Source: Paucihalobacter ruber
Lineage (GTDB): Bacteria; Bacteroidota; Bacteroidia; Flavobacteriales; Flavobacteriaceae
Reading direction: 5' to 3'
DNA length: 64,000 nucleotides
NCBI RefSeq assembly: GCF_006494535.1
Contig: NZ_VHIQ01000002.1
Span: 248,001 to 312,000, forward strand
A program made the translations under genes and the position numbers. This document shows, one piece after another, positions 9,167-57,426 of this stretch. Numbering within the stretch: position 1 is the stretch's first letter; the number at the start of each line of letters is the position of its first letter. Under the pieces are notes generated by a model. The model searched no databases. It saw only the letters and a program-made list of their open reading frames with translations, and had not been told where the DNA came from.

Positions 9167-9176
9167 GAATTAAAAA

Positions 9177-9410
9177 TTATTTTGCTTCTTCTATATAGGA
9201 AATAGCCTGACCTACTGTTGCGATATTTTCGGCCTGATCATCAGGAATTTGAATGTCGAATTCTTTTTCGAACTCCATGATTAATTCTACAGTGTCTAAT
9301 GAATCAGCACCTAAGTCGTTGGTGAAGCTTGCTTCTGCTACAACTTCATTTTCGTCAACGCCTAATTTGTCTACGATAATCGCTTTTACTCTTGATGCAA
9401 TGTCTGACAT
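9177..9410 (-). CDS. acpP: Acyl carrier protein (primary)
   Basis: A 77-residue acidic carrier of growing acyl chains. The phosphopantetheine site is S37 in the canonical [10 protein letters not shown]. It heads the acpP-fabF-rnc transcript. A TAnnTTTG box 32 bp upstream supports a promoter here. A second, divergent ACP lies in the polyketide operon at 43938. Confidence 0.97.
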
Positions 9411-41091: not shown

Positions 41092-43347
41092 CTACTTATC
41101 AAACCGTTTTAAAAGCGCCGGTAAAAAAACCACATCGCTTATAAAGGCAATTGCAATAGTTAATGCGCATAATATTCCGAATTCGCTTACCGATGGTACC
41201 GCGCTGGTGCTAATAATTAAAAATCCGGCTACCAAAGCAATGGTAGTTGAGAACAGTGCGCTACCGGTGTAAACCATAGATTTATCAATCCGCTGCTGTG
41301 CATTACCCTTTATCGCTTTTGTGCGTTTATATTTATAAATTAGATGAATGGTATCGTCCATAGCAATTCCTAACATTATAGGAGTGATCATAACGGTAGT
41401 AACATCTAGCGGGATTTCTAAAATCCACATGGCCAATGCCAAAACTAATAAGGGTAAAATATTAGGGATAAGCACCAAAATTGTAGTCTTTACATTTTTA
41501 ATAAAAAACAATAGGGCCAAAAAACCAACTATAAAAGCTGCAAAAAACGACCTGAACTGTGTTTGCAAGATAAACTTGTTAAGCTGAGAAAACACCACGG
41601 AAAAGCCTTGAATATCAAGACTGAATTTCTCCGTATTGAAACTCGATTCGAAAGCAGTTTCAATATCATTCATAATAGTTTCTAACTCTGAAGTTTTTAA
41701 TTCTTTAACCCCAACGGTAATCCCCAAAGTTTTCAAATCTTTTGAAAAAAAGGTGTAAAATGAATTGCTATGTTCGTTGTACGAAGTCAAAGCCGATTGA
41801 AGTTTAGTTTTATTAATATTAGATTGAAATAATACCGGTGTTCGCTCCTCTAAAAAATCTTTAATAGTTATTACAGAAACCGGATTTGACAATAATGGAT
41901 GTTCATCTAATTGCTTTTGAAACCTTTCGAGAGATGCAACGCCATCATCTAAAAACATATTATCTTCAGAGGTCGTTGTTATATTAATCTGTAATCGCGA
42001 ACTGGCATCTAAATGTGATTCAATCACCCGAAGATCTTGTTTAGCTTTCCCTTCAGCTAAAAGATTTAGAGAATCGGTGTCTATTTTAAGATTAAAAACC
42101 GAATAAATACCGGCCATCATTAAAATAGTTGAAACTAAAATTATGCCGCTTTTTCTTTCAGAAGTAAATTCATTTAACCTTTGAATTAATAATTGATAAT
42201 TAATATTTGAAAGACTTAAAACAGGCTTTGAATTTTTAAAATCTATATTGTAAAAACTCAATCCAATTATCACAATTACATAAACTAAAACAAAGCAAAG
42301 CAACAAACCAATACAGGTTAAAACACCCATGTTTTTAAATGCCGGAAGCGGTGATAAATACAAGGCAAAATATCCAACAATGGTGGTTAGTGTAGTGTAA
42401 AAACATGGCGTTAGACTTTTTCTAAACGCCAATGCCATGAGGTTTAGTTTATTAAGATTGGAGTTAATAATACCTTCTTTATGATAAATATTAATGATGT
42501 GCACCGCATCGCTCACACTGTACACCAGCAAAATGGTTGGTATCAGCATAGATATCATATTAAGCGCAAATCCAAAGGCTGTAATAATACCAAACAAAAG
42601 CGAAACCGGTACAATTACAGCGCATAAAGCAATAATTAAATAACGCCTGTCAGGCAATAAAAACAACAACATTAAGCCAATTACCGCAATGGTTAAAACG
42701 GCGAAAATTAAACTTTCTTTATAGATACCTCTGCTATAGGCTTCATTGAGAACAGGTGCGCCGGATAGGTGATAATCATTTCCTATTATTTCATTAAAAT
42801 ACTGTTCTATTTCAGGTAAAATAATTTCACGTTGCGATTCAATTAACGGTGTTGGCTTTAACTGAATGTAAAAAAAGAGGTTTTTGAAATCGGCTGTAAC
42901 TAGTTGATGGCTAATGCTTGGAATTTTAGACATCAAACTTTTAATAGCGTTTTCACTTCTTTGCGGGTTGTAAAGAGGCGAAAAAACGAAAACTCCGTTG
43001 TTATAAACAGGATATTCGGCTTTGGATAAACTAAACGAAGTGTTTACATACCAAAGACTATCAATCTTTTGATGTAAACGTTCTAACTTTTTGACCTCAA
43101 TACTATCTAAGGCATTAGAAACCGGAAGCATTGCAATAAAAACTTCGTCTGAACCAAATTTTTCCTGATAGGCTATATAGGCATTATACTTCGGATTATC
43201 TTCTAAAAACCATATAGCCAGACTATTATCAACTTTTAGGTTCTTTAATGTACTGTAATTTGAAAAGCCCAATAGCAGCAGCAGTAAGCCAATTATGAGC
43301 CATTTGGTTATAAGTAAAGTTTCTACAATGTTTTGAAAGATTTTCAC
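41092..43347 (-). CDS. MMPL/RND family exporter of the type III PKS operon (GTG start)
   Basis: A 751-residue RND-superfamily protein with two repeated halves, each a single helix, a large periplasmic loop and a cluster of helices. MLFLLPDRRYLIIALCAVI and VTTVMITPIMLGIAMDDTIH lie in the transport domains, with acidic residues in helices as for proton-driven export. MMPL proteins move lipids or lipid-linked pigments. The start is GTG at 43347; an in-frame TAG lies two codons upstream (43354-43356) with no ATG between. It is the last gene of a ten-gene cluster, 18 bp after the PPTase, and is the likely exporter of the cluster's product. Confidence 0.85.
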   Translation of the reverse strand: MKIFQNIVETLLITKWLIIGLLLLLLGFSNYSTLKNLKVDNSLAIWFLEDNPKYNAYIAYQEKFGSDEVFIAMLPVSNALDSIEVKKLERLHQKIDSLWYVNTSFSLSKAEYPVYNNGVFVFSPLYNPQRSENAIKSLMSKIPSISHQLVTADFKNLFFYIQLKPTPLIESQREIILPEIEQYFNEIIGNDYHLSGAPVLNEAYSRGIYKESLIFAVLTIAVIGLMLLFLLPDRRYLIIALCAVIVPVSLLFGIITAFGFALNMISMLIPTILLVYSVSDAVHIINIYHKEGIINSNLNKLNLMALAFRKSLTPCFYTTLTTIVGYFALYLSPLPAFKNMGVLTCIGLLLCFVLVYVIVIIGLSFYNIDFKNSKPVLSLSNINYQLLIQRLNEFTSERKSGIILVSTILMMAGIYSVFNLKIDTDSLNLLAEGKAKQDLRVIESHLDASSRLQINITTTSEDNMFLDDGVASLERFQKQLDEHPLLSNPVSVITIKDFLEERTPVLFQSNINKTKLQSALTSYNEHSNSFYTFFSKDLKTLGITVGVKELKTSELETIMNDIETAFESSFNTEKFSLDIQGFSVVFSQLNKFILQTQFRSFFAAFIVGFLALLFFIKNVKTTILVLIPNILPLLVLALAMWILEIPLDVTTVMITPIMLGIAMDDTIHLIYKYKRTKAIKGNAQQRIDKSMVYTGSALFSTTIALVAGFLIISTSAVPSVSEFGILCALTIAIAFISDVVFLPALLKRFDK

Positions 43348-43365
43348 AACTTTCTATATATGTTA

Positions 43366-43941
43366 CTAAGCCAAAACCACTGCAAACGCACCGAAACTCC
43401 CGTGATGTGTTAGTGATACATTTACTGGTAAAAAGGTGTTTTTATAGGACAGTTTAGGAATATTGTTCTTGGCTTTATTAAGCTGAATAAGCCTGACATC
43501 AATTTGAAAAAATAATGAAGCATTTTTCTTTAAAGCCAATGATACTTGTTGCGATTGATTATAATAGATATTGCTGTCTAACTCAAAACAACTACTTATA
43601 ACTTTTGACTTTTCTAAAATGGTTTGAGCATAAACGAATTTTGTGTTCGCAATACAATCAACACTTGTTTTAAAATTGTCCATAGAAACTTGAAAGTGCT
43701 CATTTGCCTTTTTACAAATAATTTTTTTAGGAGCAAATTCAGGTTGAAAACCTTGCTGTACAAACAATTTATATGCACTTTCTTTAACTGCCCATAATTT
43801 CCAGATGATTAAATTTGGATCTTCCGAATTAACTATCATTACTTGTTCTTCAACTGTAAAAATCTTGTCCAAGAAGCGCTTCGAACCAATGTGCTTAGAG
43901 CGATTGGCAGTTGAAAGACAAACAATGTCATTACCAATCAT
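43366..43941 (-). CDS. 4'-phosphopantetheinyl transferase superfamily protein
   Basis: Transfers phosphopantetheine from CoA to a carrier protein serine. The signatures are IGNDIV at residues 2-7 and WAVKESAYKLF at about 50-60, the WxxKEA-type metal and catalytic motif. Its 191 residues are intermediate between AcpS and Sfp types. Its start overlaps the acyl carrier protein stop by 4 bp (ATGA), strongly suggesting that this carrier is its substrate. It is a dedicated activating enzyme of the operon. Confidence 0.83.
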   Translation of the reverse strand: MIGNDIVCLSTANRSKHIGSKRFLDKIFTVEEQVMIVNSEDPNLIIWKLWAVKESAYKLFVQQGFQPEFAPKKIICKKANEHFQVSMDNFKTSVDCIANTKFVYAQTILEKSKVISSCFELDSNIYYNQSQQVSLALKKNASLFFQIDVRLIQLNKAKNNIPKLSYKNTFLPVNVSLTHHGSFGAFAVVLA

Positions 43942-44192
43942 TTGCTGTTTTGTTTGGATTGAACTATTTCAATGGCGGCTTTAACATTCAGCATTTGCTC
44001 CATGTCTTCGTTTTCCAATCTAATATCAAATGCGTCTTCGATATCGAGGATGATATCAACCAAATTAGCCGAATTTATTTTCAAATCTTTTACAAAATCG
44101 GTGGTTTCAGTGAGGTTTTTAAAAGCGTCTTCATCTTGAATGTAGGGTTCAATAATGACCTTTAATTTTTCAATTAACACAGTCTTTTCCAT
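43938..44192 (-). CDS. Acyl carrier protein of the PKS operon
   Basis: An 84-residue carrier protein with three or four helices. The phosphopantetheine serine is S41 in LKINSANLVDIILDIE. The residue before it is Asn instead of the Asp of canonical DSL, and the loop is less acidic than in the primary ACP at 9177. It lies between the ketoacyl synthase (19 bp upstream) and the PPTase (4-bp overlap). It presumably carries the growing acyl chain in the operon's pathway. Confidence 0.85.
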   Translation of the reverse strand: MEKTVLIEKLKVIIEPYIQDEDAFKNLTETTDFVKDLKINSANLVDIILDIEDAFDIRLENEDMEQMLNVKAAIEIVQSKQNSK

Positions 44193-44211
44193 ATTTAATT
44201 TTTGCCTAAAG

Positions 44212-45486
44212 TTAAGCTATAAATCGCTTAAATAAAACACAAGCATTGACATCTCCAAATCCAAAACTGGCTTTAGCAATAATGTCAAGGCCTTGCGGTT
44301 GAAATGACTTCGGAATTTTTTCGGAGTCTACAAGCATCAGGATTTCGGGATGCAAATCTTCGCAATTAATATTTGGCGCTAAAAATTGTTCCTTTAACTG
44401 AAGAATTGCAGCGACGCTTTCAATAGCCCCAGCCGCCGCCAGACAGTGACCAATAGTAGATTTGGTGGCGCTAACATAAGGAAAATCTTTACCCCTTCGA
44501 CCCAAAGCCCTGCTCCAATTTTCTATTTCTAGGCCGTCTTTTGAAGTAGCCGTTAGATGACCGTTAATTGCGTCGACCATATGAGATTTAATTCCAGAGT
44601 TAACAATAGCATTTTTAATGCAACGTTGCACGGCTTCAGGGTTTGGAGCCGTTAAGGTGCCGCCATTTCGCTGACCACCACTATTGACATCGCCGCCTAA
44701 AACTTCGGCATAGATGATAGCATTTCGTTGTAAAGCACTTTCTAAATCTTCAAGCAACAAAGCACCTGCGCCGCTACCGGGTACAAATCCTGAAGCGCTG
44801 TTACTCATTGGTCTTGACCCTTGTTCAGGTGAATCATTATGCTTATAAGTACATACACGCATGGCATCAAAACCACCCCAAACATAGGGTCCGTGATCGC
44901 TACAACTACCCACTAACATGCGTTTGGCTTTTCCGGCTTTAATGCGTTCATAACCCATAATAATGGCTTCGGTGCCGGTACTACAGGCCGAAGAATTAGT
45001 TGTGACTTGGTTGCCTAATCCCAACATTCCGCTTAAATATGCACTCACACCGCTAGCCATGGTTTGTACCACAACGGTACTGCCCAAGCGTCGAACCTGT
45101 TTATCATCTAACTGGTAAATGGCTTCTCTGAATTTCTCGACACCTGAAGTTCCTGTACCAAAAATAAGTCCGGTTTCAGGATCGTAATGCTCAAAATTAT
45201 CCGTTGGTAAACCGGCATCTTTCCAAGCGTCTATTCCTGCGATGCAACCATATAGAATACCGGAGCTATTAAAACCTCGCAGTTGTAAATCGGTAAAATA
45301 TTGTTTCTTTAAGGCTTCGGAAATTTTTGGAATTCCGCCTATCTGACAAGAAAAATTAAGATCTTTTAATTCCTGATAGAATTCAATACCGGAAGTTCCT
45401 TTTTTTAAAGCTTCAGAAAAATTAGTAATGCCTACACCATTTGGTGCCACTACTCCCAAACCGGTAACCACTACTCTATTCTTCAT
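44212..45486 (-). CDS. Beta-ketoacyl-ACP synthase of the PKS operon
   Basis: A KAS I/II-type condensing enzyme of 424 residues. C168 is in NSSACSTGTEAI, H310 in DAINGHLTATSKDG and K342/H347 in TKSTIGHCLAAAG, so the active site is complete. The first His motif is GHLTAT where KAS enzymes have HGTxT, showing divergence from the primary FabF at 7916. It overlaps the dehydratase gene by 11 bp. It is probably the chain-elongating synthase for the private ACP. No chain-length-factor partner (a Cys-less paralogue) is present. Confidence 0.87.
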   Translation of the reverse strand: MKNRVVVTGLGVVAPNGVGITNFSEALKKGTSGIEFYQELKDLNFSCQIGGIPKISEALKKQYFTDLQLRGFNSSGILYGCIAGIDAWKDAGLPTDNFEHYDPETGLIFGTGTSGVEKFREAIYQLDDKQVRRLGSTVVVQTMASGVSAYLSGMLGLGNQVTTNSSACSTGTEAIIMGYERIKAGKAKRMLVGSCSDHGPYVWGGFDAMRVCTYKHNDSPEQGSRPMSNSASGFVPGSGAGALLLEDLESALQRNAIIYAEVLGGDVNSGGQRNGGTLTAPNPEAVQRCIKNAIVNSGIKSHMVDAINGHLTATSKDGLEIENWSRALGRRGKDFPYVSATKSTIGHCLAAAGAIESVAAILQLKEQFLAPNINCEDLHPEILMLVDSEKIPKSFQPQGLDIIAKASFGFGDVNACVLFKRFIA

Positions 45487-45928
45487 CTTGCAAAACCTTT
45501 AGCATTCCTGAAATGACACCACGGCAAACCAATTCGTCATTTCGATTAAACATCTTCACCTTGCATTTTAACTTATTGAATCTAAAATATTCCTTCTCTG
45601 AAATAACCGTTACCTTTTCGTTTGGAAATACCGGTAAATAAAAATCTATTTGATGAGACGTTAAGGCCACCTGAATGTTGCTGTTTAATACATGTTCGTT
45701 TCTTAATAAATAAATTCCCAAACTTACCAAACCTATTTGCGCCATACATTCGGTTAAAATAACGCCCGGCGTTACGGGATGGTTTTTAAAATGTCCTTTA
45801 TAAAAATATTCGTCAGATTTAAAAGTATAGCTTCCGGTTAGGCCATTTTCTGAGAGCGCTTCAATAGCATCAACAAACAAAAACGGTGCTTGATACGGTA
45901 ATTTTGCAATGATTTCTTTATCTGTCAT
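45476..45928 (-). CDS. FabZ-like 3-hydroxyacyl-ACP dehydratase of the PKS operon
   Basis: A hotdog-fold protein of 150 residues. The active-site segment is H46 F K N H P V T P G V I L T E60: the His and Glu are spaced as in FabZ, and PVTPG replaces the usual PVMPG. It abuts the SDR gene without a gap and overlaps the ketoacyl synthase by 11 bp. The expected role is dehydration of 3-hydroxyacyl-ACP, leaving enoyl chains for reduction by the SDR or for retention as unsaturation. Confidence 0.83.
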   Translation of the reverse strand: MTDKEIIAKLPYQAPFLFVDAIEALSENGLTGSYTFKSDEYFYKGHFKNHPVTPGVILTECMAQIGLVSLGIYLLRNEHVLNSNIQVALTSHQIDFYLPVFPNEKVTVISEKEYFRFNKLKCKVKMFNRNDELVCRGVISGMLKVLQDEE

Positions 45929-46726
45929 CTATCTCAAATGTTCTCCGCCATCAACGGTAATGATACTTCCATTAATCCACGCTGCTTCATCCTTAGACAA
46001 TAAATACACCACATTGGCAACATCTTCCGGCGTGGTAAGTTTATTGAACGGGTTTCGTTGTACGGCCATTTTTTCCAATGCTTCGCTACCGGGAATGGCT
46101 CTAAAAGAAGGTGTATTAGTAGTGCCGGCCTGAATACAATTGGCTTTTATGCCAAACGGTGCCAATTCTAATGCCATGCTTCTTGTGATGGCTTCTAAAC
46201 TGGTTTTTGCAGCAGAAACCGCTGCATAACCATGCCATGCCTTGATATTACCTTCACTTGTAAAGCTAATAATCCGAGCATCATTATGAAATAATTTGGA
46301 GTCCAAAACAGCCTTCGTCCAATCGTATAAACTAATGGCCATGGCATTGATGGTGAGCAAAAAATCGTCGGTTTTTAAAGTTGGGTTTTCGGTGTGGGTC
46401 ATGGGCTTTAAATTTCCTTTGGCAATACTATGGACCAAGGTTTTTACACTGCCGTTATTGGCCATTTTTGCTTTTAATTGATGAATTATCTCAACTCTAT
46501 TTTTGGGATTTAAGGCATCGGCATTAAAAGATAAAAAGTCAACACCTATCTTTTTAATAGATTCAAATTCTTTTTGAATAGCATGTTCCATATTTCTGGG
46601 TGCTCTGTAAAGCACGCAAATATTCATGCCGTGTTGTGCCAGTTTTTTCGCCGATGCTAAACCCAAACCACTGCCACCACCCAAAATGAGTGCCCAATAA
46701 TTTTTATGTTCAAATTCTTTTACCAT
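45929..46726 (-). CDS. SDR oxidoreductase with enoyl-ACP-reductase-type active site
   Basis: A 265-residue Rossmann-fold reductase. The nucleotide loop is LILGGGSGLGLASAKKL. The catalytic residues are S157, Y167 and K174, and the Y-x6-K spacing is that of FabI/FabL enoyl-ACP reductases, not the Y-x3-K of ketoreductases. The C-terminal end has NGSIITVDGGEHLR. I therefore favour enoyl reduction, while a ketoreductase role cannot be excluded because no other KR is in the operon. It overlaps the type III PKS by 7 bp. Confidence 0.8.
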   Translation of the reverse strand: MVKEFEHKNYWALILGGGSGLGLASAKKLAQHGMNICVLYRAPRNMEHAIQKEFESIKKIGVDFLSFNADALNPKNRVEIIHQLKAKMANNGSVKTLVHSIAKGNLKPMTHTENPTLKTDDFLLTINAMAISLYDWTKAVLDSKLFHNDARIISFTSEGNIKAWHGYAAVSAAKTSLEAITRSMALELAPFGIKANCIQAGTTNTPSFRAIPGSEALEKMAVQRNPFNKLTTPEDVANVVYLLSKDEAAWINGSIITVDGGEHLR

Positions 46727-47772
46727 TGTAATAAAATACGTTGCGCCGAAAAACCGGGGCCAAAACTTAGCATCAAGCCCAAGTCGCCTTCGGGTAGTTT
46801 TCTGTCTATAAATCGTTCTAAAACATAGAGTACAGTTGCACTGCTCATATTGCCGTATTCTTTTAAAACCGATTTGGTATCGTCTATGTTTTTTCCAATA
46901 GCGCCAAACAATTCTTCAACGGTTTGCACAATTTTTTTCCCGCCGGGATGAAAAATCAAATGATTTACGGCATTGATATCAATACCATTCCGCTCTAAAA
47001 ACGGATAAATGATGTCGGGAAAATGATTGGCAATCGTTTCGGGAACCGACTGGTCTAAGACCATTTGCAAACCTGAGTTGGTTAAATTAAATCCCATCAT
47101 ATGGGTGGCGTCGAAAAAATGATACATGGCCTGGTCTAAAATTTCAGGACCGGTTTCTTCAGGATAAGACGATAAAATGGCGGCAGCACAACCATCGCCA
47201 AATATGGCAGCACTTACAATATTTACCATAGAAAAATCGTCGTGCTGAAAGGTAGCCGTTGGCGATTCAACGGCAATAATCAGTGCCCGTTTGTTGGGTA
47301 TAGATTTTAAAAAATGATAGGCATAAATCATAGCCGAAACACCCGCCGCGCATCCCATTTCGGTAACAGGTAAACGCACAATGTCCTGATTCATCTTAAA
47401 GTGATTGATGAGATAGGCATCAAGCGACGGAATCATAATTCCTGTGCAGCTCACTGTAATTATAAAGTCAATTTCGGTGGGTTTTAATTGAGCTTTTTCT
47501 AGTGCCCGCGATGTAGCGGTTTGAGCCAAATTGGTGCATTCTTTTATGTAAATATTATTTTTTTCTTCGAAAGAGGTTTTTAAAAACACCTCATCTGCAT
47601 CCATAATGGCATAACGTTTGTCAACGGCGGCATTTTCAAATATTTTAAGAACCTTCCGCTTAAAACGCTCGTCCTGACCATCAAGCCATTGTTCTACATA
47701 AGGCAAGATATCTTTGGTATGTCTGGTATATTTTGGAAGCGCCTTGGCTACTGTTGTTATTTTTACTGCCAT
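46720..47772 (-). CDS. Type III polyketide synthase (chalcone/stilbene synthase family)
   Basis: A 350-residue homodimer-type condensing enzyme that extends a starter acyl group with malonyl-CoA and cyclises the product. The Cys-His-Asn triad is C141 (TEMGCAAGVSAM), H275 (LIFHPGGKKIV) and N308 (EYGNMSSATV). VSCTGIMIPSLDA and the C-terminal GPGFSAQRILL are family features. The enzyme works on a CoA or ACP starter; the adjoining ACP and fatty-acid-type genes suggest a long acyl starter, giving an alkylresorcinol or alkylpyrone. It lies 1 bp after the methyltransferase. Confidence 0.9.
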   Translation of the reverse strand: MAVKITTVAKALPKYTRHTKDILPYVEQWLDGQDERFKRKVLKIFENAAVDKRYAIMDADEVFLKTSFEEKNNIYIKECTNLAQTATSRALEKAQLKPTEIDFIITVSCTGIMIPSLDAYLINHFKMNQDIVRLPVTEMGCAAGVSAMIYAYHFLKSIPNKRALIIAVESPTATFQHDDFSMVNIVSAAIFGDGCAAAILSSYPEETGPEILDQAMYHFFDATHMMGFNLTNSGLQMVLDQSVPETIANHFPDIIYPFLERNGIDINAVNHLIFHPGGKKIVQTVEELFGAIGKNIDDTKSVLKEYGNMSSATVLYVLERFIDRKLPEGDLGLMLSFGPGFSAQRILLQW

Positions 47773-47773
47773 A

Positions 47774-48478
47774 TTATAATTTAATAATCCATTGGTAACG
47801 AAATGCCCATCGCCATTTAATTTGTGATTTTAATTGAAGCCGGTTTGAAAACCTCACCAGTTCATCTTTTTTAAAAGCTCTTTTTATCGAAGTAAGACCG
47901 TCTTCTTTCACCATTTTATTTGAGATGAAAAGCCCTAAACCTTGAAAGAGTAAATAGGCTAATTTACTTCTTTGTAAATCGTTAATCACAATTCCTATGG
48001 TAGTATTTTGCTGAAATATTTCAAGTAATTTAATGATTTCTTCGTCTTTAAAATGATGTAAAAACAATGTTGCTAACATAATGTCGCAATTCATGTTTTT
48101 AAATGCTTCCGAAAAAACATCTTCGCATAAAAATGAAATATTGGGGTGATTAATAGATAATTCATTTGCATAATTAACAGCATCTAAATTAGCATCAACC
48201 CCAAGTAATTCTAACCGATATCCGTTTTTTTTGGCCCATTTTGCAATTAATCTCAGCATATCTCCATGCCCACAACCAAGGTCAATAATGTGATATATCT
48301 GATCTTTCGGCTTGTCTATAAGCAGGTTTGCAACGCCATTTACTGTAATGCAATTACCTCCCAACCATTTATTAATGTTGCCTAACTTATTAAGCGTGTC
48401 TCTTAGTGTTTCGCCTTCAAGTTTGAAGTCGTCCATAAGTTCTATCTCATCACTTCTATATGTGGTATCTATAAGCAT
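47774..48478 (-). CDS. Class I SAM-dependent methyltransferase of the PKS operon
   Basis: A 234-residue methyltransferase with motif I IIDLGCGHGDML at about 64-75 and an acidic post-I loop (LELLGVDANLDAV). The motif LATLFLHHFKDEE follows. The C-terminal part is basic and may bind lipid or membrane. It overlaps the FAD reductase by 10 bp and precedes the type III PKS by 1 bp. The likely substrate is a hydroxyl or ring carbon of the polyketide product. Confidence 0.83.
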   Translation of the reverse strand: MLIDTTYRSDEIELMDDFKLEGETLRDTLNKLGNINKWLGGNCITVNGVANLLIDKPKDQIYHIIDLGCGHGDMLRLIAKWAKKNGYRLELLGVDANLDAVNYANELSINHPNISFLCEDVFSEAFKNMNCDIMLATLFLHHFKDEEIIKLLEIFQQNTTIGIVINDLQRSKLAYLLFQGLGLFISNKMVKEDGLTSIKRAFKKDELVRFSNRLQLKSQIKWRWAFRYQWIIKL

Positions 48479-49617
48479 TCAACAGCTGTCATTGGTTTAC
48501 CATGTGTGCGTTTAATAATTAACGGAAGTAGTATCGGAAAATAACTAATTAATCCTAACAACATTGGGGCTAACCATTCCTGACGGAATAAGTAAGCCAA
48601 TATATGACCTGTTTTAAGTCGTGCTTTAAATGCTGTATCCCACATTTTGGAATATTGCTTTTCCATTTCACTTCTACTGCTAATTTTTTTATGAAGATAA
48701 TCAATTATCACCAAAGAAGCCATTTGTGCGCTTCTTATTGCCATGGCCATGCCGTTACCGCATAAAGGATGAATCATTCCGGCTGTGTCACCACACATGA
48801 TCATGTGGTTTTCGATGGTCTTTTTAGTTTGAAACGAAATTTGACTGATAGTTAATGGCTGTTCAAAACACATCTCGGCATTTTGAAAAATATAGTTTAA
48901 AGACTTGTTTTTGAATACCACTTGTTGCTGAAAGGCATCTATGTCTTTATGTTTTTTAAAGCTTTTAAAATTGGTAATGTAACAGAGGTTAACACGGTCT
49001 TCTTCTACCATACTAACGCCGCAATAGCCCCCTTTAAAGTTATGTAAAGCAACCAAATCTTCTTTGAAAGCGATTTTTGCATGCGTTTTTACAGCTAGGT
49101 ATGGCGATTGTTGTTTGATGAAACTTCTGTTGAGCTTAACGTCTAAATTAGCGCGTTTACCAAAGGCACCAATGGTAATTGCACTTGAAAATTCCCCGTT
49201 ATTTTTTGTGGAAATAGTAAATTGATTGTTCAAAAAAATAACATTGGTTACTGAATCCTGAAGAATTTGCACCCCGTTTTGAAGAGCAAGTTTAGAGAGC
49301 TCGTAATCCATTTTGTATCGACTAATTCCAAAGCCACCCAAAGGTAATTTAGAGCTGATTTTTTTGTTGCTATTGGTAGTGAGTTCAAAATTATAAATGG
49401 CTTTTGCTCCAAAATCAAAAGGATTAAATCCTAAACTTTTGAGGTATGGTAATACTTCGGTGGAAATGTATTCGCCACAAACTTTGTGCTTGGGGTAACT
49501 ATTTTTTTCAATGAGTAAAACCTGGATATTAAACTTGCTTAAATGAATAGCGCTCACCAATCCGGCCAAGCCACCGCCAATGATAATTACAGGGTAGAAA
49601 TTTGGGGAATTATTCAT
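48469..49617 (-). CDS. FAD-dependent oxidoreductase, geranylgeranyl reductase/monooxygenase-like
   Basis: A p-hydroxybenzoate-hydroxylase-fold flavoprotein of 382 residues. The FAD loop is VIIIGGGLAGLVSAIHLS near the start, and a second FAD motif GDTAGMIHPLCGNGMAMAI occurs at about 270-290. The start is the ATG at 49617; a TTG at 49653 would lie inside the upstream gene. Such enzymes hydroxylate aromatic rings or reduce polyprenyl or acyl chains. In this setting ring hydroxylation of the polyketide is plausible, like SrsC in the Streptomyces srsABC type III PKS pathway; this is inference. Confidence 0.82.
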   Translation of the reverse strand: MNNSPNFYPVIIIGGGLAGLVSAIHLSKFNIQVLLIEKNSYPKHKVCGEYISTEVLPYLKSLGFNPFDFGAKAIYNFELTTNSNKKISSKLPLGGFGISRYKMDYELSKLALQNGVQILQDSVTNVIFLNNQFTISTKNNGEFSSAITIGAFGKRANLDVKLNRSFIKQQSPYLAVKTHAKIAFKEDLVALHNFKGGYCGVSMVEEDRVNLCYITNFKSFKKHKDIDAFQQQVVFKNKSLNYIFQNAEMCFEQPLTISQISFQTKKTIENHMIMCGDTAGMIHPLCGNGMAMAIRSAQMASLVIIDYLHKKISSRSEMEKQYSKMWDTAFKARLKTGHILAYLFRQEWLAPMLLGLISYFPILLPLIIKRTHGKPMTAVECL

Positions 49618-49621
49618 TGGT

Positions 49622-50737
49622 CTAAGGTAGTAAATTGGCCAATTCTTTCCCAACCAAACTTCCTATAGCTACGCCCATGCCACCTAATCTTACACCGCAA
49701 TAAATATTGTTGGAGTACTGTTTTACAATTGGGGATTTTTCTGAGCCAACTCCCATGATGCCACTCCAGCGGTGATCAATATCAAATGGTGTGTCAGGCA
49801 AAATAATTTCCTTTAAATAGTTTTCAAGCTGATTTTGAACTATTTCTGTTAGGCCAAATTCTGTTGTTTCTTCGGTTTTAAAGTCTAAATTTCTGCCGCC
49901 ACCAAACAAAATTCTATTGTTGATACTTCTAAAATAGTAGTAACCTTCGTCTAAATGAAAAGTACCTTTAATTTTTAAAGCATCTATAGGTTTGGTAATT
50001 AATACCTGAGCGCGTGCGGGTTTTACATTAACTTCCATTAATTTGGCGGCAAAACCGTTGGTTGAAACAAATACTTGACTAGTTTTAAATTCAAAGTGAT
50101 TGGTTTTAATGTTTACACCATTTAGGCTATCTTCAATATCTTCAACAGTAATATTATTTAAAATTTTGATCTCTTTTTTATAAGCTAGGTTTAATAAGGC
50201 TTCCATCATTTTTCCAGTGTCGATTTGACCTTCAAACGGATTGAAACTAAGTTGAGGAATCACCTTTTCAAAACCTTGATTATTATCTACCCACGAAAAC
50301 ACGTCAGCACCAAATATGGGTTTAAGCAACCTATTAATTTTGGAAGTATTGGCTTGACATTTCTCGAACAGTTCCTTTTGGCCGTTTAAAAACAACTCAT
50401 AACCTCCGTGTTTTTTATAATCAATAGCTTTATCTCCGAGGGTTTGTCTTAATAATTGTAAGCCTTCTATTCTGTTTTTCACAAGATTTGAAAGTTCTTG
50501 TTCTGAGTGATGATTAAGATCGGCTATCATCTCACTTAAACTTCCAAAGCATGCAAAACCGGCGTTCTTGGTACTGGCACCTTGTGGCAAGATGCCTTTT
50601 TCGAGAACTAAGACTTTAGCGGCAGGAAATCTCTCTTTAAGGTGAATGGCACAGTTTAATCCAACAATACCACTGCCAATAACAGTAAAATCGATGTTTT
50701 GAAGCCAAGATTTTATTTCCCAATAAGATAAATTCAT
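49622..50737 (-). CDS. DAO-family FAD-dependent oxidoreductase
   Basis: A 371-residue DadA/glycine-oxidase-type flavoprotein. The FAD loop is FTVIGSGIVGLNCAIHL at about 16-32 and the mid part has FGGGRNLDF and WSGIMGVG. It is first in the cluster, 4 bp before the second flavoprotein. Its ATG lies directly in the T tract of the terminator that ends the upstream protease gene, so it has no room for an ordinary promoter and leader. Membership in the PKS pathway rests on spacing only; amine or amino-acid oxidation is the general family activity. Confidence 0.78.
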   Translation of the reverse strand: MNLSYWEIKSWLQNIDFTVIGSGIVGLNCAIHLKERFPAAKVLVLEKGILPQGASTKNAGFACFGSLSEMIADLNHHSEQELSNLVKNRIEGLQLLRQTLGDKAIDYKKHGGYELFLNGQKELFEKCQANTSKINRLLKPIFGADVFSWVDNNQGFEKVIPQLSFNPFEGQIDTGKMMEALLNLAYKKEIKILNNITVEDIEDSLNGVNIKTNHFEFKTSQVFVSTNGFAAKLMEVNVKPARAQVLITKPIDALKIKGTFHLDEGYYYFRSINNRILFGGGRNLDFKTEETTEFGLTEIVQNQLENYLKEIILPDTPFDIDHRWSGIMGVGSEKSPIVKQYSNNIYCGVRLGGMGVAIGSLVGKELANLLP

Positions 50738-50783: not shown

Positions 50784-53072
50784 TTAATCTACTATTATTT
50801 TTTTAGTTACTTTTTGATTGCCGTTGGTGATGCTCAATAAGTACATTCCAGACTGCGCATTGTCTAATGTGAGGGTTTCTTCAAATCTACCGTTGGATTG
50901 GTATGTTTTACTTAAAATGGCTCTGCCACGAATATCATAGACTTCCAATACGATTTTTTCATTTGATTTAGGCTCAAAACTAATATTAACTTTGTCAATT
51001 GTGGGATTTGGATATATTTTGAGATTAGAAAATTGATTCTCATTTACACTTAATTGTGCTTGTATTTCAAAATCTCGAGTATTAACATTATAAAATATAT
51101 TGCCAACTGCTTCCACCATAATTCTACAATTAGTTGCGTCTATTTGTGGTAACATAACAGTTTGAGAACCATCATTTGGAGTATTGGAAACTAGAACCGT
51201 ATCAAAACTTAGTCCGCCATTTGAAGATAATAGAATATTTACATTAGAAACATTAATTCCTGATCCAGCCGTACCTGCAACGTCCCATGTTACCGTTTGG
51301 GAAGTACCTCCTTCTAAAATTAACCCTGTTGTATTTTGAGAAGTCACCTTAAAAAATGCCGCGCCAGTATTAGTTGTAATAATCATGTTATCTACTGCTA
51401 TTTGTCCGCCTCTTAAGTCATTGTCTCTCACAGTAAGTCTATAATTAATCTGTCTACTGACTAATGTTAGTTTTTCCCAATTTGTTGAAGTTCCACCATT
51501 TTGTAATACATCTGATAATCTTGGTACAAATCTAGTGGGGCTATTTGAGCCTTCAAAAGATCGAACTAGCGGCCCTTCAGTTGCTGTTTCAGACGGCATT
51601 CCTGCAGCAGGACCGAGGTCGTATTGCTCCCAGGTGTAGGTGTGAGTGGCTGTACCATCCGGATCTGAAGATAATCCGTTTAGTTTATAAGGAGTGCCAA
51701 CTGGTATTGTATAATTTGCTCCTGCATTGGCAGATGGAACGCTATTACCTGATAAAGTTTGAACAGGGCAAGTACTACTATTTCCTGCAGATATATTCGC
51801 CCAAATAAGTTCTAAACTTCTTTGATGAAAATACGCATCACTCAGTGGCTGTATATTTTGACTTCCACAAATACCAGCGTAAGCCATTATGGTAGTTCCA
51901 CTTCCGGGTTCGTAGGCAGAATTAGCAGTTCTTTGTCCTACGCTTCCACAAAAGCCTTCATTACCATTAAATGTATGTGTTGAGCCAAACTGATGCCCCA
52001 TTTCGTGTGCCACAAAGTCTATGTCGAAAGGGTCTCCCACCGGCTGTGGCAAACCGGTTATCCCTCTAGCTTTTTGACCGTTCACACAAGGCACATTCAA
52101 AGATGCTAAACCTCCTCCTCCAGTACTAAGGGTGTGGCCTATGTCATAATTTGTATTGCCAATGTTGCTGTCAATTACCGCCTGACTCTGGTTTATTAGA
52201 ACACCAGCGTTGTTATTATCGAAAGGGTCGTTGGAAAGAAATATTATGATATCGTTATTGGGAATAATGGTCATTGTTAAAGATAGGTCTCTTTCGTAAA
52301 TTCCATTAACTCTAGTCATCGTAACATTCATTGCGGCTAAAACAGCAGCCTTTTTTTCAATATCGGTTGCTGCGCTCAATCCTGCTCGGTTTACGTGAAA
52401 AGCCGCATATTCTTCGGTACATGCCAAGGCAAGTCTGTATTCTCTAAGTCTCCCGTCGTTAGCATTTCTGGCTTGCTCAAGATTTACAATTTCTGATCTG
52501 TTAAATCCTTGTAATTCGTCTTCTACTTCACAAACATGAGGGTTGTCTAACTCACTCAAATTACGCTTGGCGTATACAATATAAATATCGCCATGCTTCG
52601 AATAAGGATCAATATATTGTGCCCCTGCATTTCCTCCTAATGTCATAGTGTGTAGTCCAAAATCTGAAATACTAAGTCGAACAAAAAGCGAAGGATGATC
52701 TACACCTTGTCCCACATAAGATTTTATTGATGGATACTTTAATTGTAACTCTTCATGCAGTACACTTGCTTCCATAACTTTAAAGTTATCAAACCCACCA
52801 CTGGAATTTGGCAAATTTATTACAATATTAGAATTTACATTACCACTCACACGTTGCGGAGCATTCTGTAAAACTTCTTTGATTGCTCTAACGTCTAACT
52901 GATAATAATAAGACTGATTGGGTATGGTCTTTCTGAACTCTCGCTCTGAAGATTCAACTTTCTCGGCACTTATAGGTTTCCAGTAATTATTACTCTTTTG
53001 AGCAATTACTGTTGATGTAAATATCAAAATAGCTAAAGTCAATTTCAATATTATTAAGTAATTATTTCTCAT
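50784..53072 (-). CDS. Secreted reprolysin-like zinc metalloprotease with T9SS sorting domain (copy B)
   Basis: A 762-residue exported protease. The signal peptide ends near residue 24 (TSTVIAQ). The metzincin zinc site is HEMGHQFGSTH in the catalytic domain, HExxHxxxxxH. Further domains follow (SGNSVPSANAGANYTIPVGT and a beta-sandwich region), and the last 75 residues form the T9SS type A sorting domain (IYPNPTIDKVNISF, then SGMYLLSITNGNQKVTKKI). It is thus secreted through the type IX system. It is a close paralogue of the gene 28 bp upstream, with the same domain order, and precedes the PKS operon. Confidence 0.93.
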   Translation of the reverse strand: MRNNYLIILKLTLAILIFTSTVIAQKSNNYWKPISAEKVESSEREFRKTIPNQSYYYQLDVRAIKEVLQNAPQRVSGNVNSNIVINLPNSSGGFDNFKVMEASVLHEELQLKYPSIKSYVGQGVDHPSLFVRLSISDFGLHTMTLGGNAGAQYIDPYSKHGDIYIVYAKRNLSELDNPHVCEVEDELQGFNRSEIVNLEQARNANDGRLREYRLALACTEEYAAFHVNRAGLSAATDIEKKAAVLAAMNVTMTRVNGIYERDLSLTMTIIPNNDIIIFLSNDPFDNNNAGVLINQSQAVIDSNIGNTNYDIGHTLSTGGGGLASLNVPCVNGQKARGITGLPQPVGDPFDIDFVAHEMGHQFGSTHTFNGNEGFCGSVGQRTANSAYEPGSGTTIMAYAGICGSQNIQPLSDAYFHQRSLELIWANISAGNSSTCPVQTLSGNSVPSANAGANYTIPVGTPYKLNGLSSDPDGTATHTYTWEQYDLGPAAGMPSETATEGPLVRSFEGSNSPTRFVPRLSDVLQNGGTSTNWEKLTLVSRQINYRLTVRDNDLRGGQIAVDNMIITTNTGAAFFKVTSQNTTGLILEGGTSQTVTWDVAGTAGSGINVSNVNILLSSNGGLSFDTVLVSNTPNDGSQTVMLPQIDATNCRIMVEAVGNIFYNVNTRDFEIQAQLSVNENQFSNLKIYPNPTIDKVNISFEPKSNEKIVLEVYDIRGRAILSKTYQSNGRFEETLTLDNAQSGMYLLSITNGNQKVTKKIIVD

Positions 53073-53100
53073 ATCGACTGTTTGTTTTTAGAGCATCTTA

Positions 53101-55359
53101 TTACTGTATTACTACCTTTTTGGTTACTTGTTTATTTCCTTCAGAAACTTTTAACAAGTAAACCCCGGTGCTTAGGTTATTGACAGAAATAGACCTGCTT
53201 ATTTCTCCTGACTCTTTAACTATATCAGTGTAAACAACTCTACCTTTTAAATCAAAAAGTTGTAAATTTATTGTTTCTCCTGACGTGTTAAGTAGTTGTA
53301 TTTCAAAATTGCCATCACTCGGATTAGGATAAATTCTAAAATTAGCCGCTAATGTATCATCGTTAATACTAAGCTGTTCTTGAATTTGAAATGTCCTGTT
53401 ATTAACGTTAAAGAAAATATTACCAACTGCCTCAACCATAATGCGGCATTGTGTGGCGACAACATTTGGCATGGTAACAACCTCAGTGCCATCATTTGGT
53501 GTATTAGAGGCTAAAACAATATTGAAGTTTTGACCCCCATCAATAGATAATAATATATTAACATTTGAAGTATTAATGCCCGAGCCGGTTGTACCAGCTA
53601 CATCCCATGAGACTGTTTGATCAGAGCCGCCCTCGTAAACTAAGTTTAAGGTATTTTGGGAAGTAACTCTGAAAAAGCCCGAAGCAACTGTATTAATTGT
53701 CATTTCGTCAAATGCGTTATTTCCACCTCGAGTGTCATTATCTCTAACCGTAAATCTATAATTAATGACTCTTGCTAAAACTGGTAGCTGTTCCCATTGA
53801 ACATTAGAGGCGCCACTTGTTATTATATTCGATAATCTTGGCACGTATCTAACAGGGCTAGCACTTGGTAAAAAGGATCGAACTAATGGTCCTTCTGCAG
53901 TAGTTGCTGAAGGCACGCCCGAAGGACCCAAGTCATATTGCTCCCAAGAGTAAGTATGTGTTTCAGTACCGTCGGGATCTGCTGAAGAACCGGTAAGTTT
54001 ATAAGGCGTTCCTATTGGAATGTTGTAATTAGGGCCTGCATTTGCAATTGGACTTGAATTTCCTGAAGAAACTAAGTTTGGACAGGCAGAACCAGTACCG
54101 GCAGATATGTTGGCCCATATAGCTTCTAAACTACGTTGGTGAAAATACAAATCACGATTGTTTTGTACATTCTGTACACCACAAATACCGGGATAAGCCA
54201 TAATAGTTGACCCACTGCCTGGCTCATAAGCCGAATTTGGATCTCTTTGGTTGGGGTTACCACAAGCATTAGTATTTCCATTAAAGGTATGTCTGCTGCC
54301 AAATTGATGCCCTATTTCATGTTTTAATACTCCTTCAAATCCGATTCCGGCTGGTACACCCGACCCTGACACACCTCTTGCCTTATTTGAAGTACAAGGT
54401 GAATTTAACTGTGCCAAACCACCCGGTCCTGTGCAAAGCATATGACCTATGTCATAAACTGTTCCTATGAATGCATCGATAAATTGCTGACTTTCACTAA
54501 TAAGATTAGTTAGATTATTATTACTTAAAAAAGGTGAAGAAAGAAAAATAACATTTTCATTGGTAGGCACAAGTATCATGGTTAGTGAAACTTCATTTTC
54601 GTATACAGCATTTACCCTTGTCATTAAATCATTCATTACTACTAATACAGCAGCTTTCTTTTGCGCATCGGTAGCGTCATTTAAGCCAGCTTGGTTTACA
54701 TGAAAGGCGGCGTATTCTTCAGTGCAACCCATGGCCAACTTATATTCTCGCATTTGGCCGTCATTAGCGTTTCTCTCAAAGGAGCTACCGAAGTTTCTGT
54801 TAAAATCAAGTCCGTCGTCATCAAAACCACACTCAAAATAATCTGTTCCTTCGGGTAGATTTTTTCTATTGAAAACCGAAAAAACCAACTGCTCTTTAAT
54901 AGCCGGTTCAATATATTCTGTACCGGTTTCATCATTTAAGCTTATGGCTTTAAAACTATTTTCTGAAATACTAAATCGAATTATTTTAGAAGGATTTTCT
55001 AAACTTTTACCAATATAAGAACCCAATTCAGGATAGACTTCTTGTAGGGACTCGTCTATTACAGGTGCATTAAATATTTGAAATTTTTCTATTTTACCAA
55101 ATGCATTAGGGAATCCTATTTCAACATGACTTCTGGCATTTGAGGAACGGCTTGGTGCATCAGCCAATAGGGTCTTTAACCTATTTAAATTTAACTTATA
55201 AAACTGTTCTTTTATTGGTAAATCTGGGCGATTTTGCAGAATTTTAGCGTCTAAAGTGTTAGTATCGACTGCTTGCCATATATTTTGCGCTGATATTGTA
55301 AAAACACAAAAAACAATAAAAGTAAAAGATGCCAAGGCTTGGGTAACTTTTTTATTCAT
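53101..55359 (-). CDS. Secreted reprolysin-like zinc metalloprotease with T9SS sorting domain (copy A)
   Basis: A 752-residue paralogue of copy B. A signal peptide (ALASFTFIVFCVFTISAQ), the zinc motif HEIGHQFGSRH, AYEPGSGSTIMAYPGICG, and a C-terminal sorting domain (IYPNPSDGNFEIQL, STGVYLLKVSEGNKQVTKKV) line up along the length with copy B. The start is the ATG at 55359 (MNKKVTQAL); an upstream in-frame start would precede the signal peptide. The tandem arrangement on one strand indicates local duplication and later divergence, especially in the propeptide. The natural substrate is unknown. Confidence 0.93.
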   Translation of the reverse strand: MNKKVTQALASFTFIVFCVFTISAQNIWQAVDTNTLDAKILQNRPDLPIKEQFYKLNLNRLKTLLADAPSRSSNARSHVEIGFPNAFGKIEKFQIFNAPVIDESLQEVYPELGSYIGKSLENPSKIIRFSISENSFKAISLNDETGTEYIEPAIKEQLVFSVFNRKNLPEGTDYFECGFDDDGLDFNRNFGSSFERNANDGQMREYKLAMGCTEEYAAFHVNQAGLNDATDAQKKAAVLVVMNDLMTRVNAVYENEVSLTMILVPTNENVIFLSSPFLSNNNLTNLISESQQFIDAFIGTVYDIGHMLCTGPGGLAQLNSPCTSNKARGVSGSGVPAGIGFEGVLKHEIGHQFGSRHTFNGNTNACGNPNQRDPNSAYEPGSGSTIMAYPGICGVQNVQNNRDLYFHQRSLEAIWANISAGTGSACPNLVSSGNSSPIANAGPNYNIPIGTPYKLTGSSADPDGTETHTYSWEQYDLGPSGVPSATTAEGPLVRSFLPSASPVRYVPRLSNIITSGASNVQWEQLPVLARVINYRFTVRDNDTRGGNNAFDEMTINTVASGFFRVTSQNTLNLVYEGGSDQTVSWDVAGTTGSGINTSNVNILLSIDGGQNFNIVLASNTPNDGTEVVTMPNVVATQCRIMVEAVGNIFFNVNNRTFQIQEQLSINDDTLAANFRIYPNPSDGNFEIQLLNTSGETINLQLFDLKGRVVYTDIVKESGEISRSISVNNLSTGVYLLKVSEGNKQVTKKVVIQ

Positions 55360-55448
55360 ATAATTTTTTTTTGCTAAAGTTACGGCCAAACCATTAAAAT
55401 TACAATAAGCTTAAAAAAATTCTAAGAATTTAAAAATTTGACATAATC

Positions 55449-55481: not shown

Positions 55482-56834
55482 TTAATCTTCTTCAATTGGC
55501 TGCATTTTAAATCCTTCCATAAATTTAGTGGTGTAATTACCTGCCAAATAATCTGGATGTTCCATTAACTGTCTGTGAAATGGAATCGTGGTTTTAATCC
55601 CTTCAATTACAAATTCATCTAATGCGCGCTTCATTTTATTGATGGCTTCTCCCCTGGTTTGAGCGGTTGTTATGAGTTTGGCAATCATTGAGTCATAATT
55701 AGGCGGAATAGAATATCCGGCATACACATGAGTGTCTAATCGTACTCCATGACCACCGGGTGCATGAAGGGTTGTAATTCTTCCCGGTGAAGGCCTGAAA
55801 TCGTTAAACGGGTCTTCGGCATTGATTCTGCACTCGATAGAGTGCAAGTTTGGTGTATAATTTTTACCTGAAATTGGCACTCCGGCAGCGACCAAAATTT
55901 GTTCTCTTATTAAATCAAAATCTATGACCTGCTCTGTAATTGGATGTTCAACCTGAATTCGGGTATTCATCTCCATAAAGTAGAAATTACGGTGCTTGTC
56001 AACCAAAAACTCAACCGTGCCGGCACCTTCATATTTAATAAATTCTGCTGCTTTAACTGCCGCCATCCCCATTTTATCGCGAAGCTCATCGGTCATAAAT
56101 GGTGAAGGGACTTCTTCAGTTAATTTTTGATGACGTCGCTGTATGGAACAATCTCTTTCGGAAAGGTGACAAGCTCTTCCTGTTGAATCTCCTACAATTT
56201 GAATCTCGATATGTCGCGGTTCTTCTATAAGTTTCTCCATATACATACCATCATTACCAAAAGCAGCTTTAGATTCTTGCCTGGCCGAATCCCATGCCGC
56301 TTTCAGGTTTTCGGGTTTCCAAACGGCCCGCATACCTTTTCCGCCGCCGCCTGCCGTGGCTTTAAGCATTACAGGATAACCTATTTCTTTTGCTAATTTT
56401 TCGCAAGTTTCAAAATCGGGAATAATACCTTCACTACCTGGAACACATGGAACGCCTGCCGCTCTCATGGTTGCTTTGGCTGTTGCTTTATCTCCCATCT
56501 TCGCAATCATTTCTTCTGAGGCGCCAATGAATTTAATACCGTGCTCGGCGCATATTTTTGAAAACTTAGCGTTTTCTGATAAAAAACCATAGCCGGGATG
56601 GATAGCGTCTGCATTGGTAATTTCGGCTGCGGCTATAATATTTGACATTTTAAGGTAAGACTCTGCGCTTGAAGGCGGGCCAATACAAACGGCTTCATCG
56701 GCAAATTTAACATGCAAACTTTCTGCATCGGCAGTAGAATAAACCGCTACTGTTTTAATGCCCATTTCTTTACATGTTCTAATGACACGAAGCGCAATTT
56801 CACCTCTGTTGGCTACTAATATTTTTTTAAACAT
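55482..56834 (-). CDS. accC: Acetyl-CoA carboxylase, biotin carboxylase subunit
   Basis: ATP-grasp enzyme that carboxylates biotin on AccB, the first step to malonyl-CoA. [17 protein letters not shown] opens the protein, the glycine-rich ATP loop is [14 protein letters not shown], and [14 protein letters not shown] and [12 protein letters not shown] are conserved. I start at the ATG at 56834, since the 26 residues ahead of it in the open frame come from the palindromic spacer after accB. Length 450 is typical. Confidence 0.96.
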
Positions 56835-56871
56835 AACTTCTAAAATTAAATTTTTCAAATTCCAAGTGCCC

Positions 56872-56899
56872 AATTCCAAAATACTGGAATTTTGGAATT
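56872..56899. repeat. Inverted repeat in the accB-accC spacer
   Basis: Perfect 11-bp stem AATTCCAAAAT/ATTTTGGAATT (56872-56882 with 56889-56899), 6-nt loop, no T tract. Related AATTCCAA words surround it. It may be an mRNA hairpin that sets accB/accC ratios or a dispersed repeat. Confidence 0.6.
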
Positions 56900-56923
56900 T
56901 ACTTTTTGGCAATTGTCAATTGG

Positions 56924-57412
56924 TTATGATGGGTCTACTAAAAATAGCGGTTGGTCAAATTCTACAGGTGATGAATCATCTACAAGAATTTTTACAATTT
57001 TACCTGAAATTTCAGATTCAATTTCGTTGAATAATTTCATGGCTTCAATCACACAAAGCACATCTCCTTCTTTGATTTCTTTTCCAACCTCAACAAAAAC
57101 AGGTTTGTCGGGCGAAGGCTTTCTATAAAAGGTTCCTATAATTGGAGACTTAATTGTGATATACTTACCATCTTCTGAGGCAATCGAAGCTGCTTGTGGT
57201 GCTTCTTGAGGCGCCGACTGCAATTGTGTAGCCACGGGAACCTGTGTTATTGGCTGACCAACAGGCGCTTGCTGAACAATTGTAGTAGACTCACCTTTGA
57301 CTTCACCTCCGGTTTTAATAGTGATTTTTACGTCGTCCATTTCTAATCTCACCTCGTTAGCTCCTGATTTAGCTACAAATTTTATTAGATTTTGAATGTC
57401 TTTTAAATCCAT
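56924..57412 (-). CDS. accB: Acetyl-CoA carboxylase, biotin carboxyl carrier protein
   Basis: Carries biotin between AccC and the carboxyltransferase. The biotinylated lysine is K126 in VIEAMKLFNEIE. An N-terminal helical domain, a Gln/Pro-rich linker (about 45-82) and the C-terminal biotinyl domain are in the usual order. Length 162 is normal. It lies 14 bp after fabH and 89 bp before accC. Confidence 0.96.
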   Translation of the reverse strand: MDLKDIQNLIKFVAKSGANEVRLEMDDVKITIKTGGEVKGESTTIVQQAPVGQPITQVPVATQLQSAPQEAPQAASIASEDGKYITIKSPIIGTFYRKPSPDKPVFVEVGKEIKEGDVLCVIEAMKLFNEIESEISGKIVKILVDDSSPVEFDQPLFLVDPS

Positions 57413-57426
57413 TTGTTATAGTTATT

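Follow-up and report, generated by a model that had tools for sequence, protein, structure and literature searches.

The DNA analysed here is a 64,000-nucleotide stretch of Paucihalobacter ruber (NCBI RefSeq assembly GCF_006494535.1, contig NZ_VHIQ01000002.1, positions 248,001 to 312,000 of the forward strand), which we call the window. On its minus strand, ten open reading frames (ORFs) occupy positions 41092-50737, and all ten were confirmed as present. Judged from sequence comparison, the working unit is an eight-gene cassette at 49617-43366, made up of genes for a flavin adenine dinucleotide (FAD)-dependent oxidoreductase (fad2), a methyltransferase (MT), a type III polyketide synthase (PKS), a short-chain dehydrogenase/reductase (SDR), a FabZ-like dehydratase, a ketoacyl synthase (KS), an acyl carrier protein (ACP) and a 4'-phosphopantetheinyl transferase (PPTase). 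We consider it fairly probable that this cassette builds an acyl chain on its own ACP and converts it to a methylated, oxidised, ring-bearing lipid. The product is best read as an alkyl-phenol, quinone or pyrone lipid modified in this way.

A tie between the PKS and the acyl genes was seen in a survey of 199 Flavobacteriaceae genomes, approximately one per genus, using thresholds of E<=1e-40 for the PKS and E<=1e-130 for the KS. Of the 64 genomes with a PKS match, one (G372, at 32% identity) has a PKS of a different type, which leaves 63. The cassette KS was present in 62 of these 63 and in none of the other 136, the exception being G434. The two genes are clearly unlinked in two genomes, lying ∼355 kb apart in G482 and on different contigs, both away from contig ends, in G440, and both genes are kept in each case. 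A third genome, G367, has PKS and KS each within ∼1 kb of a contig start and was not counted as unlinked. The sequence-only reading had proposed that the acyl donor is made and loaded by the operon itself. The co-occurrence, together with the confinement of the module to one PKS clade described below, strengthens the idea of a private acyl-ACP supply: the KS, ACP, FabZ-like, SDR and PPTase genes are tied to the PKS, their catalytic residues are invariant in the rows compared and the KS is kept when unlinked. The proposal was overstated as to self-sufficiency, since the cassette has no ketoreductase.

Gene order was compared in a set of loci comprising the PKS regions of six relatives and 80 loci from named genomes, the best among 466 confirmed there. 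To these were added loci found by a PF02797 match (20 of 24 class-level genomes, 17 of 98 phylum-level genomes and one family-level genome, G303), loci from 22 family-level genomes out of the 64 in which the PKS was matched, and 17 stretches chosen to follow up special cases. Profiles derived from flavobacterial loci served to label the ORFs, and a PKS score above 400 bits defined the window's type, giving 115 loci, or 111 distinct loci after four duplicates were dropped. Loci were chosen by their type III PKS, mostly with the window protein (with Pfam PF02797 for L150, L152 and L179), so the presence of the PKS is itself no evidence. The 111 distinct loci contained FAD (111), MT (111), KS (105), ACP (104), FabZ (103), SDR (100), PPTase (91), DAO (68) and MMPL (30) genes, the last two being flanking genes discussed below. 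The fad2, mt and t3pks genes are adjacent and in the same order in 109, and gene order and KS presence in the relatives' loci are beyond chance. The homologues are found together in other genomes, as a single pathway had been expected to require, for the eight cassette genes, while DAO and MMPL are separable. The KS was not found in six loci: L049 and L089 (both cut by the contig end), L212 and L214 (split clusters with the KS elsewhere), L079 and L086.

Several variants of the cassette were seen. In the two split cassettes (L212/L213 in G482 and L214/L215 in G440), FAD-MT-PKS-SDR lies at one place and FabZ-KS-ACP at another, the latter half adjoining a ∼800-aa ORF in both genomes. Eleven cassettes keep KS, FabZ and ACP without an SDR (L047, L054, L056, L062, L075, L099, L152, L157, L166, L178 and L179). 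No SDR copy elsewhere was found at E<=1e-30 in the six genomes searched (G244, G126, G340, G040, G303 and G099); the same search did find the gene in the window's genome, G122 and G315. The SDR-free genomes may make a less reduced tail, or may rely on a host reductase. L064, L065 and L080 have an extra ORF matching the methyltransferase profile between ACP and PPTase. In twelve loci from other genera (L023, L024, L026, L165-L169 and L173-L176), mostly without a recognised PPTase, the cassette follows a ∼660-aa ORF and a ∼230-aa ORF, which in L023 we read as dehydrogenase-like and OmpA-like, respectively. The PKS tree places the window's protein nearest to that of G001, a member of the same genus, and next to those of Jejuia and Winogradskyella. 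The flavobacterial-type cassette also occurs in other families of the same class (L150 in G267, L152 in G099), which suggests horizontal transfer.

In the loci compared, the acyl module is confined to one PKS clade, with related FAD and MT genes elsewhere pairing with another. Of the 20 class-level loci outside Flavobacteriaceae, two have the flavobacterial cassette (L150 and L152), 14 belong to a group characterized by the FAD-MT-PKS triad and four have a PKS without both partners. All three triad genes are held within the stretch in 13 of the 14, in varying order, L143 being without MT. No KS, ACP or PPTase was found in any of the 36 loci of other PKS types (18 class-level, 17 phylum-level and L177), several of which run into the end of a contig. 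Between 21 flavobacterial rows and the triad rows (14 for FAD, 13 for MT and 14 for PKS), identity averages 41% for FAD, 35% for MT and 28% for the PKS; within the flavobacterial rows it is 52, 46 and 72%, making the PKS the most conserved of the three. Both trees were quick, without bootstrap and with long-branched PDB rows. The PKS tree separates a flavobacterial-type clade (25 rows, SH-aLRT 100) from the clade containing the triad rows (27 rows, 100); the FAD tree places its 25 flavobacterial-type rows (SH-aLRT 96) beside the triad rows and away from three outgroup rows. The same division is visible at PKS position 228, which is Phe in 116/116 rows of the window's type; the 36 other bacteroidotal rows have 35 Trp and one Tyr (Trp in 14/14 triad rows, 17/17 phylum-level rows and 4/5 remaining rows, the fifth being the Tyr). 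Phe228 aligns with Tyr224 of THNS, which in the passages available from one review is equated with CHS Gly256, a residue linked to starter choice and chain length; the same passages state that Trp281 of ArsB governs resorcinol versus pyrone formation (PMC6274091). Position 228 is probably that of ArsB Trp281, because ArsC Met293, nine residues past Gly284, matches Met237 here.

For the ten ORFs, Pfam and NCBIfam concur with the families named in the sequence-only reading, mostly as divergent members below equivalog cut-offs. In the residue counts that follow, rows include the window and duplicates and exclude those under the score threshold, and residues were placed using the motifs that we take to be the catalytic ones. 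The PKS (46720..47772, minus strand, as are all genes given here) scores 79.3 bits with PF02797 and 65.3 bits with PF00195 (cut-offs 27), and its Cys141-His275-Asn308 triad is invariant in 116/116 rows. Its structural model (pLDDT 88.5) has as best solved matches Pks11 (Z 43.7, 2.5 Å, 346 residues) and CylI (Z 42.6). By Pfam score, triad and predicted fold, the window protein is a type III PKS. The best NCBIfam model is DpgA, an identity rejected at 167.6 bits against a cut-off of 425, as was membership of DarB (flexirubin resorcinol; 30.7 bits versus 550); HpnN membership also fails its NCBIfam cut-off. A choice between CoA and ACP based on basic residues near the PKS N-terminus was dropped because malonyl-CoA must bind there anyway.

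The first cassette gene, fad2 (48469..49617), encodes a monooxygenase/reductase-like protein that matches Pfam FAD families, with every one of the 25 NCBIfam matches listed below cut-off. The nearest folds to its AlphaFold model (pLDDT 85.9) are flavin halogenases and aromatic hydroxylases (Z 36-32), including FasV, PltA, which is a halogenase (Z 36), and 3-hydroxybenzoate 6-hydroxylase (Z 33). The FAD glycine motif, as written for the search, was not found in the window's fad2 and its conservation is not claimed; Asp277 is kept in 114/115 rows, with one gap. The matches of the PKS and FAD models support the predicted class of each enzyme, not the product. The mt product (47774..48478) is a class I S-adenosylmethionine-dependent methyltransferase, PRK06202-like (Methyltransf_25, E 7e-11; NF004851, 139 bits, cut-off 243). 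The SDR (45929..46726) has FabL as best NCBIfam match (145.9 bits, not reaching the cut-off of 328). Its Ser/Tyr/Lys residues, including Y167 and K174, are present in 104/104 rows, and we take the Y167-x6-K174 spacing to be the catalytic signature of FabL/FabI-type enoyl reductases. The FabZ-like 3-hydroxyacyl-ACP dehydratase (45476..45928; FabA PF07977, E 1.7e-12; FabZ 61.7 bits, cut-off 113) has His46/Glu60 in 109/109 rows, and the KS (44212..45486), a divergent FabF-like beta-ketoacyl-ACP synthase (TIGR03150, 271 bits, cut-off 494), has Cys168/His310/His347 in 108/108. PF00550 is over cut-off for the ACP (43938..44192), whose candidate phosphopantetheine site, Ser41, is kept in 108/108 rows, and PF01648 for the PPTase-like protein (43366..43941), with Asp5, Lys53 and Glu54 in 95/95.

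A pathway consistent with these assignments would begin with charging of the cassette ACP by the cassette PPTase or a host one. The cassette KS would then extend acyl-ACP using malonyl-ACP supplied by the host, with a host ketoreductase, invoked because the cassette has none, and the FabZ-like protein and, if present, the SDR completing each cycle. Acyl-ACP or 3-ketoacyl-ACP would be handed directly to the PKS, which would add malonyl-CoA units and cyclise the chain to an alkylresorcinol or alkylpyrone. From the precedents of the hid, srs and pkq sets described below, the MT would methylate the ring and the flavoprotein hydroxylate it, giving a phenolic lipid or quinone. The YceI-family protein encoded before fad2 in many relatives would suit a membrane or periplasmic lipid. 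More tentatively, and on balance doubtfully, the Phe228 clade with its private type II module may make an undescribed class of lipid, possibly an accessory quinone, in about one-third of Flavobacteriaceae genera, with unsaturated or polyene tails in the lineages that have lost the SDR.

A number of observations weigh against this pathway. Linked inheritance alone explains most of the PKS/KS co-occurrence, with only two genomes clearly unlinked, so these two cases weigh most. Two instances of a PKS without a KS are unexplained, namely L079, from G434, where the whole genome was searched, and L086, where the search covered its 21-kb locus, and L030 has a KS and no ACP in its stretch. Among distinct loci keeping both KS and ACP, the SDR is missing in 11, FabZ was undetected in three and the PPTase was not found in 13; the cassette set is therefore not uniform. 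Neither a ketoreductase nor a malonyl transferase is present among the eight cassette genes. At the position mapped by inference to ArsB 281, the PKS has Phe rather than the Trp reported for alkylresorcinol synthases, and the cyclisation type is therefore not readable from the sequence; Pks11, the other best structural match beside CylI, is titled an alkylpyrone enzyme. In the available passages, the bulky Tyr224 of THNS is said to favour a malonyl starter (PMC6274091).

Three other explanations were considered. One is that the locus is an ordinary hid/srs/pkq-like triad drawing on housekeeping acyl-CoA or acyl-ACP, with the KS/ACP module making an unrelated lipid and merely linked to it. The 13 of 14 triad-group loci that hold all three genes free of the module fit this, as do G434 and L086, but it is unlikely given PKS/KS co-occurrence of 62/63 versus 0/136, the retention of both unlinked halves in G482 and G440, and the lack of KS, ACP and PPTase in 36 loci of other PKS types. 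Alternatively, the order of events could be reversed, the PKS making an aromatic acid from malonyl-CoA in the manner of DpgA or THNS, and the acid being loaded on the ACP and elongated by KS, FabZ and SDR. Aryl starters are elongated on ACP in aryl polyenes and flexirubin, and the KS/FabZ/SDR/ACP group resembles such an elongation set. DpgA being the best NCBIfam model, albeit far below its cut-off, and the alignment of Phe228 with the malonyl-favouring THNS Tyr224 are also in keeping with this order. However, the eight genes include no ligase or acyltransferase for loading a free acid (Pfam, NCBIfam) and no DpgB/C/D-type gene, and FAD and MT genes beside a PKS are known from alkylresorcinol operons; we regard a reversed order as quite unlikely.

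The remaining explanation, put forward in the sequence-only reading, is that all ten genes form one pathway, with the DAO-family FAD oxidoreductase (49622..50737; PF01266) oxidising and the MMPL/RND-family membrane protein (41092..43347; PF03176) exporting the product. The run is continuous with short junctions, and MMPL directly follows PPTase or ACP in 30 of the 111 distinct loci, but DAO and MMPL are retained in places where the cassette is absent, and the cassette in places where they are absent, which makes the ten-gene pathway improbable. A close DAO (E under 1e-100) was found in 7/21 genomes. It occurs without the PKS type in G007 and on a different contig from the PKS in G002, G008 and G012; in G011 the PKS is present with no close DAO in the genome. 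With a close MMPL defined as E<=1e-60 and the best five or fewer candidates scored per genome, one was present in 15/199 family genomes, five of them with the PKS type (G000, G001, G010, G337 and G360). Ten of the 15 thus have MMPL without the PKS type, some being incomplete assemblies (G436 75%, G349 82%), and 58 of the 63 genomes with the PKS type have no close MMPL among the candidates scored. Five of eight cassette-free MMPL loci (L204, L205, L206, L210 and L218) show the run dao-[mtgA]-greA-like-[yceI]-mmpl with no cassette between, so the cassette site also exists empty; the other three (L207-L209) are in other settings. DAO and MMPL were accordingly rejected as pathway members: from these comparisons they look like neighbours, and the term exporter is unsupported. 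MMPL could still have been recruited into the pathway in a Winogradskyella-like lineage.

In many relatives the DAO gene lies within a run accC-dao-mtgA-greA-like. Among the 47 distinct loci that have both genes, accC immediately precedes dao in 26, and a single gene separates them in 16 more. A dao or greA-like gene is nearby in 74 of the 111 distinct loci and absent in 37, so the cassette is not tied to a single setting. The yceI gene directly precedes fad2 in 48/111. In eight of these 48 the stretch contains neither DAO nor a greA-like gene (L048 and L091, among the eight, are cut by a contig end), so yceI can remain next to the cassette when the DAO run is missing; in L210 it is beside mmpl with no cassette. 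The window site is without yceI, and its genome has two YceI genes elsewhere.

The sequence-only reading put every overlap or gap among the ten genes at 19 bp or less, which is correct, the junctions ranging from an 11-base overlap to a 19-base gap. They are DAO/FAD2, gap 4 (with FAD2 starting at ATG 49617; an alternative TTG start at 49653 would overlap DAO); FAD2/MT, overlap 10; MT/T3PKS, gap 1; T3PKS/SDR, overlap 7; SDR/FabZ, gap 0; FabZ/KS, overlap 11; KS/ACP, gap 19; ACP/PPTase, overlap 4; and PPTase/MMPL, gap 18. A terminator-like hairpin with a T run (50766-50742, minus strand) stops nearly at the DAO start codon. Terminator-like sites (8 observed versus 7.2 expected) were not used as evidence, nor were sigma-70-like sites (35 versus 39.4), the sigma-70 consensus being ill-suited to Bacteroidota. 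The housekeeping fatty-acid genes had been described as separate. This applies to acpP/fabF (7916-9410); fabH-accB-accC (55482-58431) are not simply separate, accC often adjoining dao in relatives. In the window, two tandem 762-aa metalloprotease-like paralogues lie between accC and dao (50784-55389, minus strand); as read from the translations, both contain an HExxH motif and end in what resembles a C-terminal sorting sequence.

The literature searched agrees with the earlier statement that no named system with exactly this set was known: none was found in titles and abstract openings, with coverage that excludes bioRxiv and includes few subscription papers, and the mentions found are at class level. 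Surveys of Flavobacteriaceae using antiSMASH give the T3PKS class as 9% (PMC7440613) or 10.74% (PMC10734526) of biosynthetic gene clusters, and the passages available from these and a third paper (PMC7615552) give no gene anatomy or product. In the third, Winogradskyella bathintestinalis APC 3343, our locus L047, is reported to have a single T3PKS cluster, with 8% similarity to a beta-lactam cluster. Very likely, such survey clusters are partly the cassette, and the pathway would then be linked to a common cluster class of flavobacteria. Type III PKSs are said, in the part of the source available, generally to use CoA thioesters, with few accepting acyl-ACP (PMC6274091). A widespread lineage (63/199 genomes) with its own type II acyl set would offer a handle on recognition of acyl-ACP by type III PKSs, with the triad-only Bacteroidia, whose tailoring genes are related and whose PKS is of another clade, as a natural control.

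Among the closest known systems are hidABC (hierridins, cyanobacteria) and a planctomycete operon, each uniting genes for an MT, an FAD oxidoreductase and a type III PKS; in the available descriptions, on which the comparison rests, no KS, ACP, FabZ, SDR or PPTase is reported alongside, unlike in the cassette (PMC10896814, PMC8086630). These passages also propose that HidC starts from C14 acyl-ACP, and describe the Saltatorellus ferox operon as opening with a lipoprotein and a lipid/isoprenoid-binding protein, a start that recalls YceI beside the flavobacterial cassettes. The actinobacterial srsABC and pkqABC, as described in the passages available, are three-gene sets of type III PKS, MT and hydroxylase/oxidoreductase that lead to alkyl quinones, with a PKS bearing Trp281 (PMC9927152), whereas the cassette has fatty acid synthase (FAS) genes and Phe at the inferred position. 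A PKS with adjacent MT and FAD oxidoreductase, the hallmark of the hid, srs and pkq sets, is thus found in 109/111 distinct loci; their lack of FAS genes of their own is not shared, with KS in 105/111 and ACP in 104/111. Two type III PKSs that accept their chain from a carrier are CylI (cylindrocyclophane), one of the two best fold matches, and GCS (germicidin), which is naturally supplied from primary fatty acid synthesis. The FAS enzymes of the cassette are discrete (type II), comprising KS, FabZ-like protein, SDR and ACP, whereas the FAS of the ars operon is reportedly type I, according to the title of a 2008 paper. In the passages available, this operon of Azotobacter vinelandii combines type III PKSs with a dedicated FAS and direct hand-over of the ACP-bound chain, GCS took hexanoyl-ACP, and acyl-ACP use is documented for ArsB/ArsC, GCS and SCO7671 (PMC6274091); for CylI, the chain is described as coming from type I PKSs that act upstream (PMC8086630). 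Weighing these likenesses, the cassette is best read as a known kind of system in a new combination, in which a hid/srs/pkq-like tailoring pair would work with a PKS of another clade and with an ars-like dedicated FAS in the form of discrete type II enzymes.

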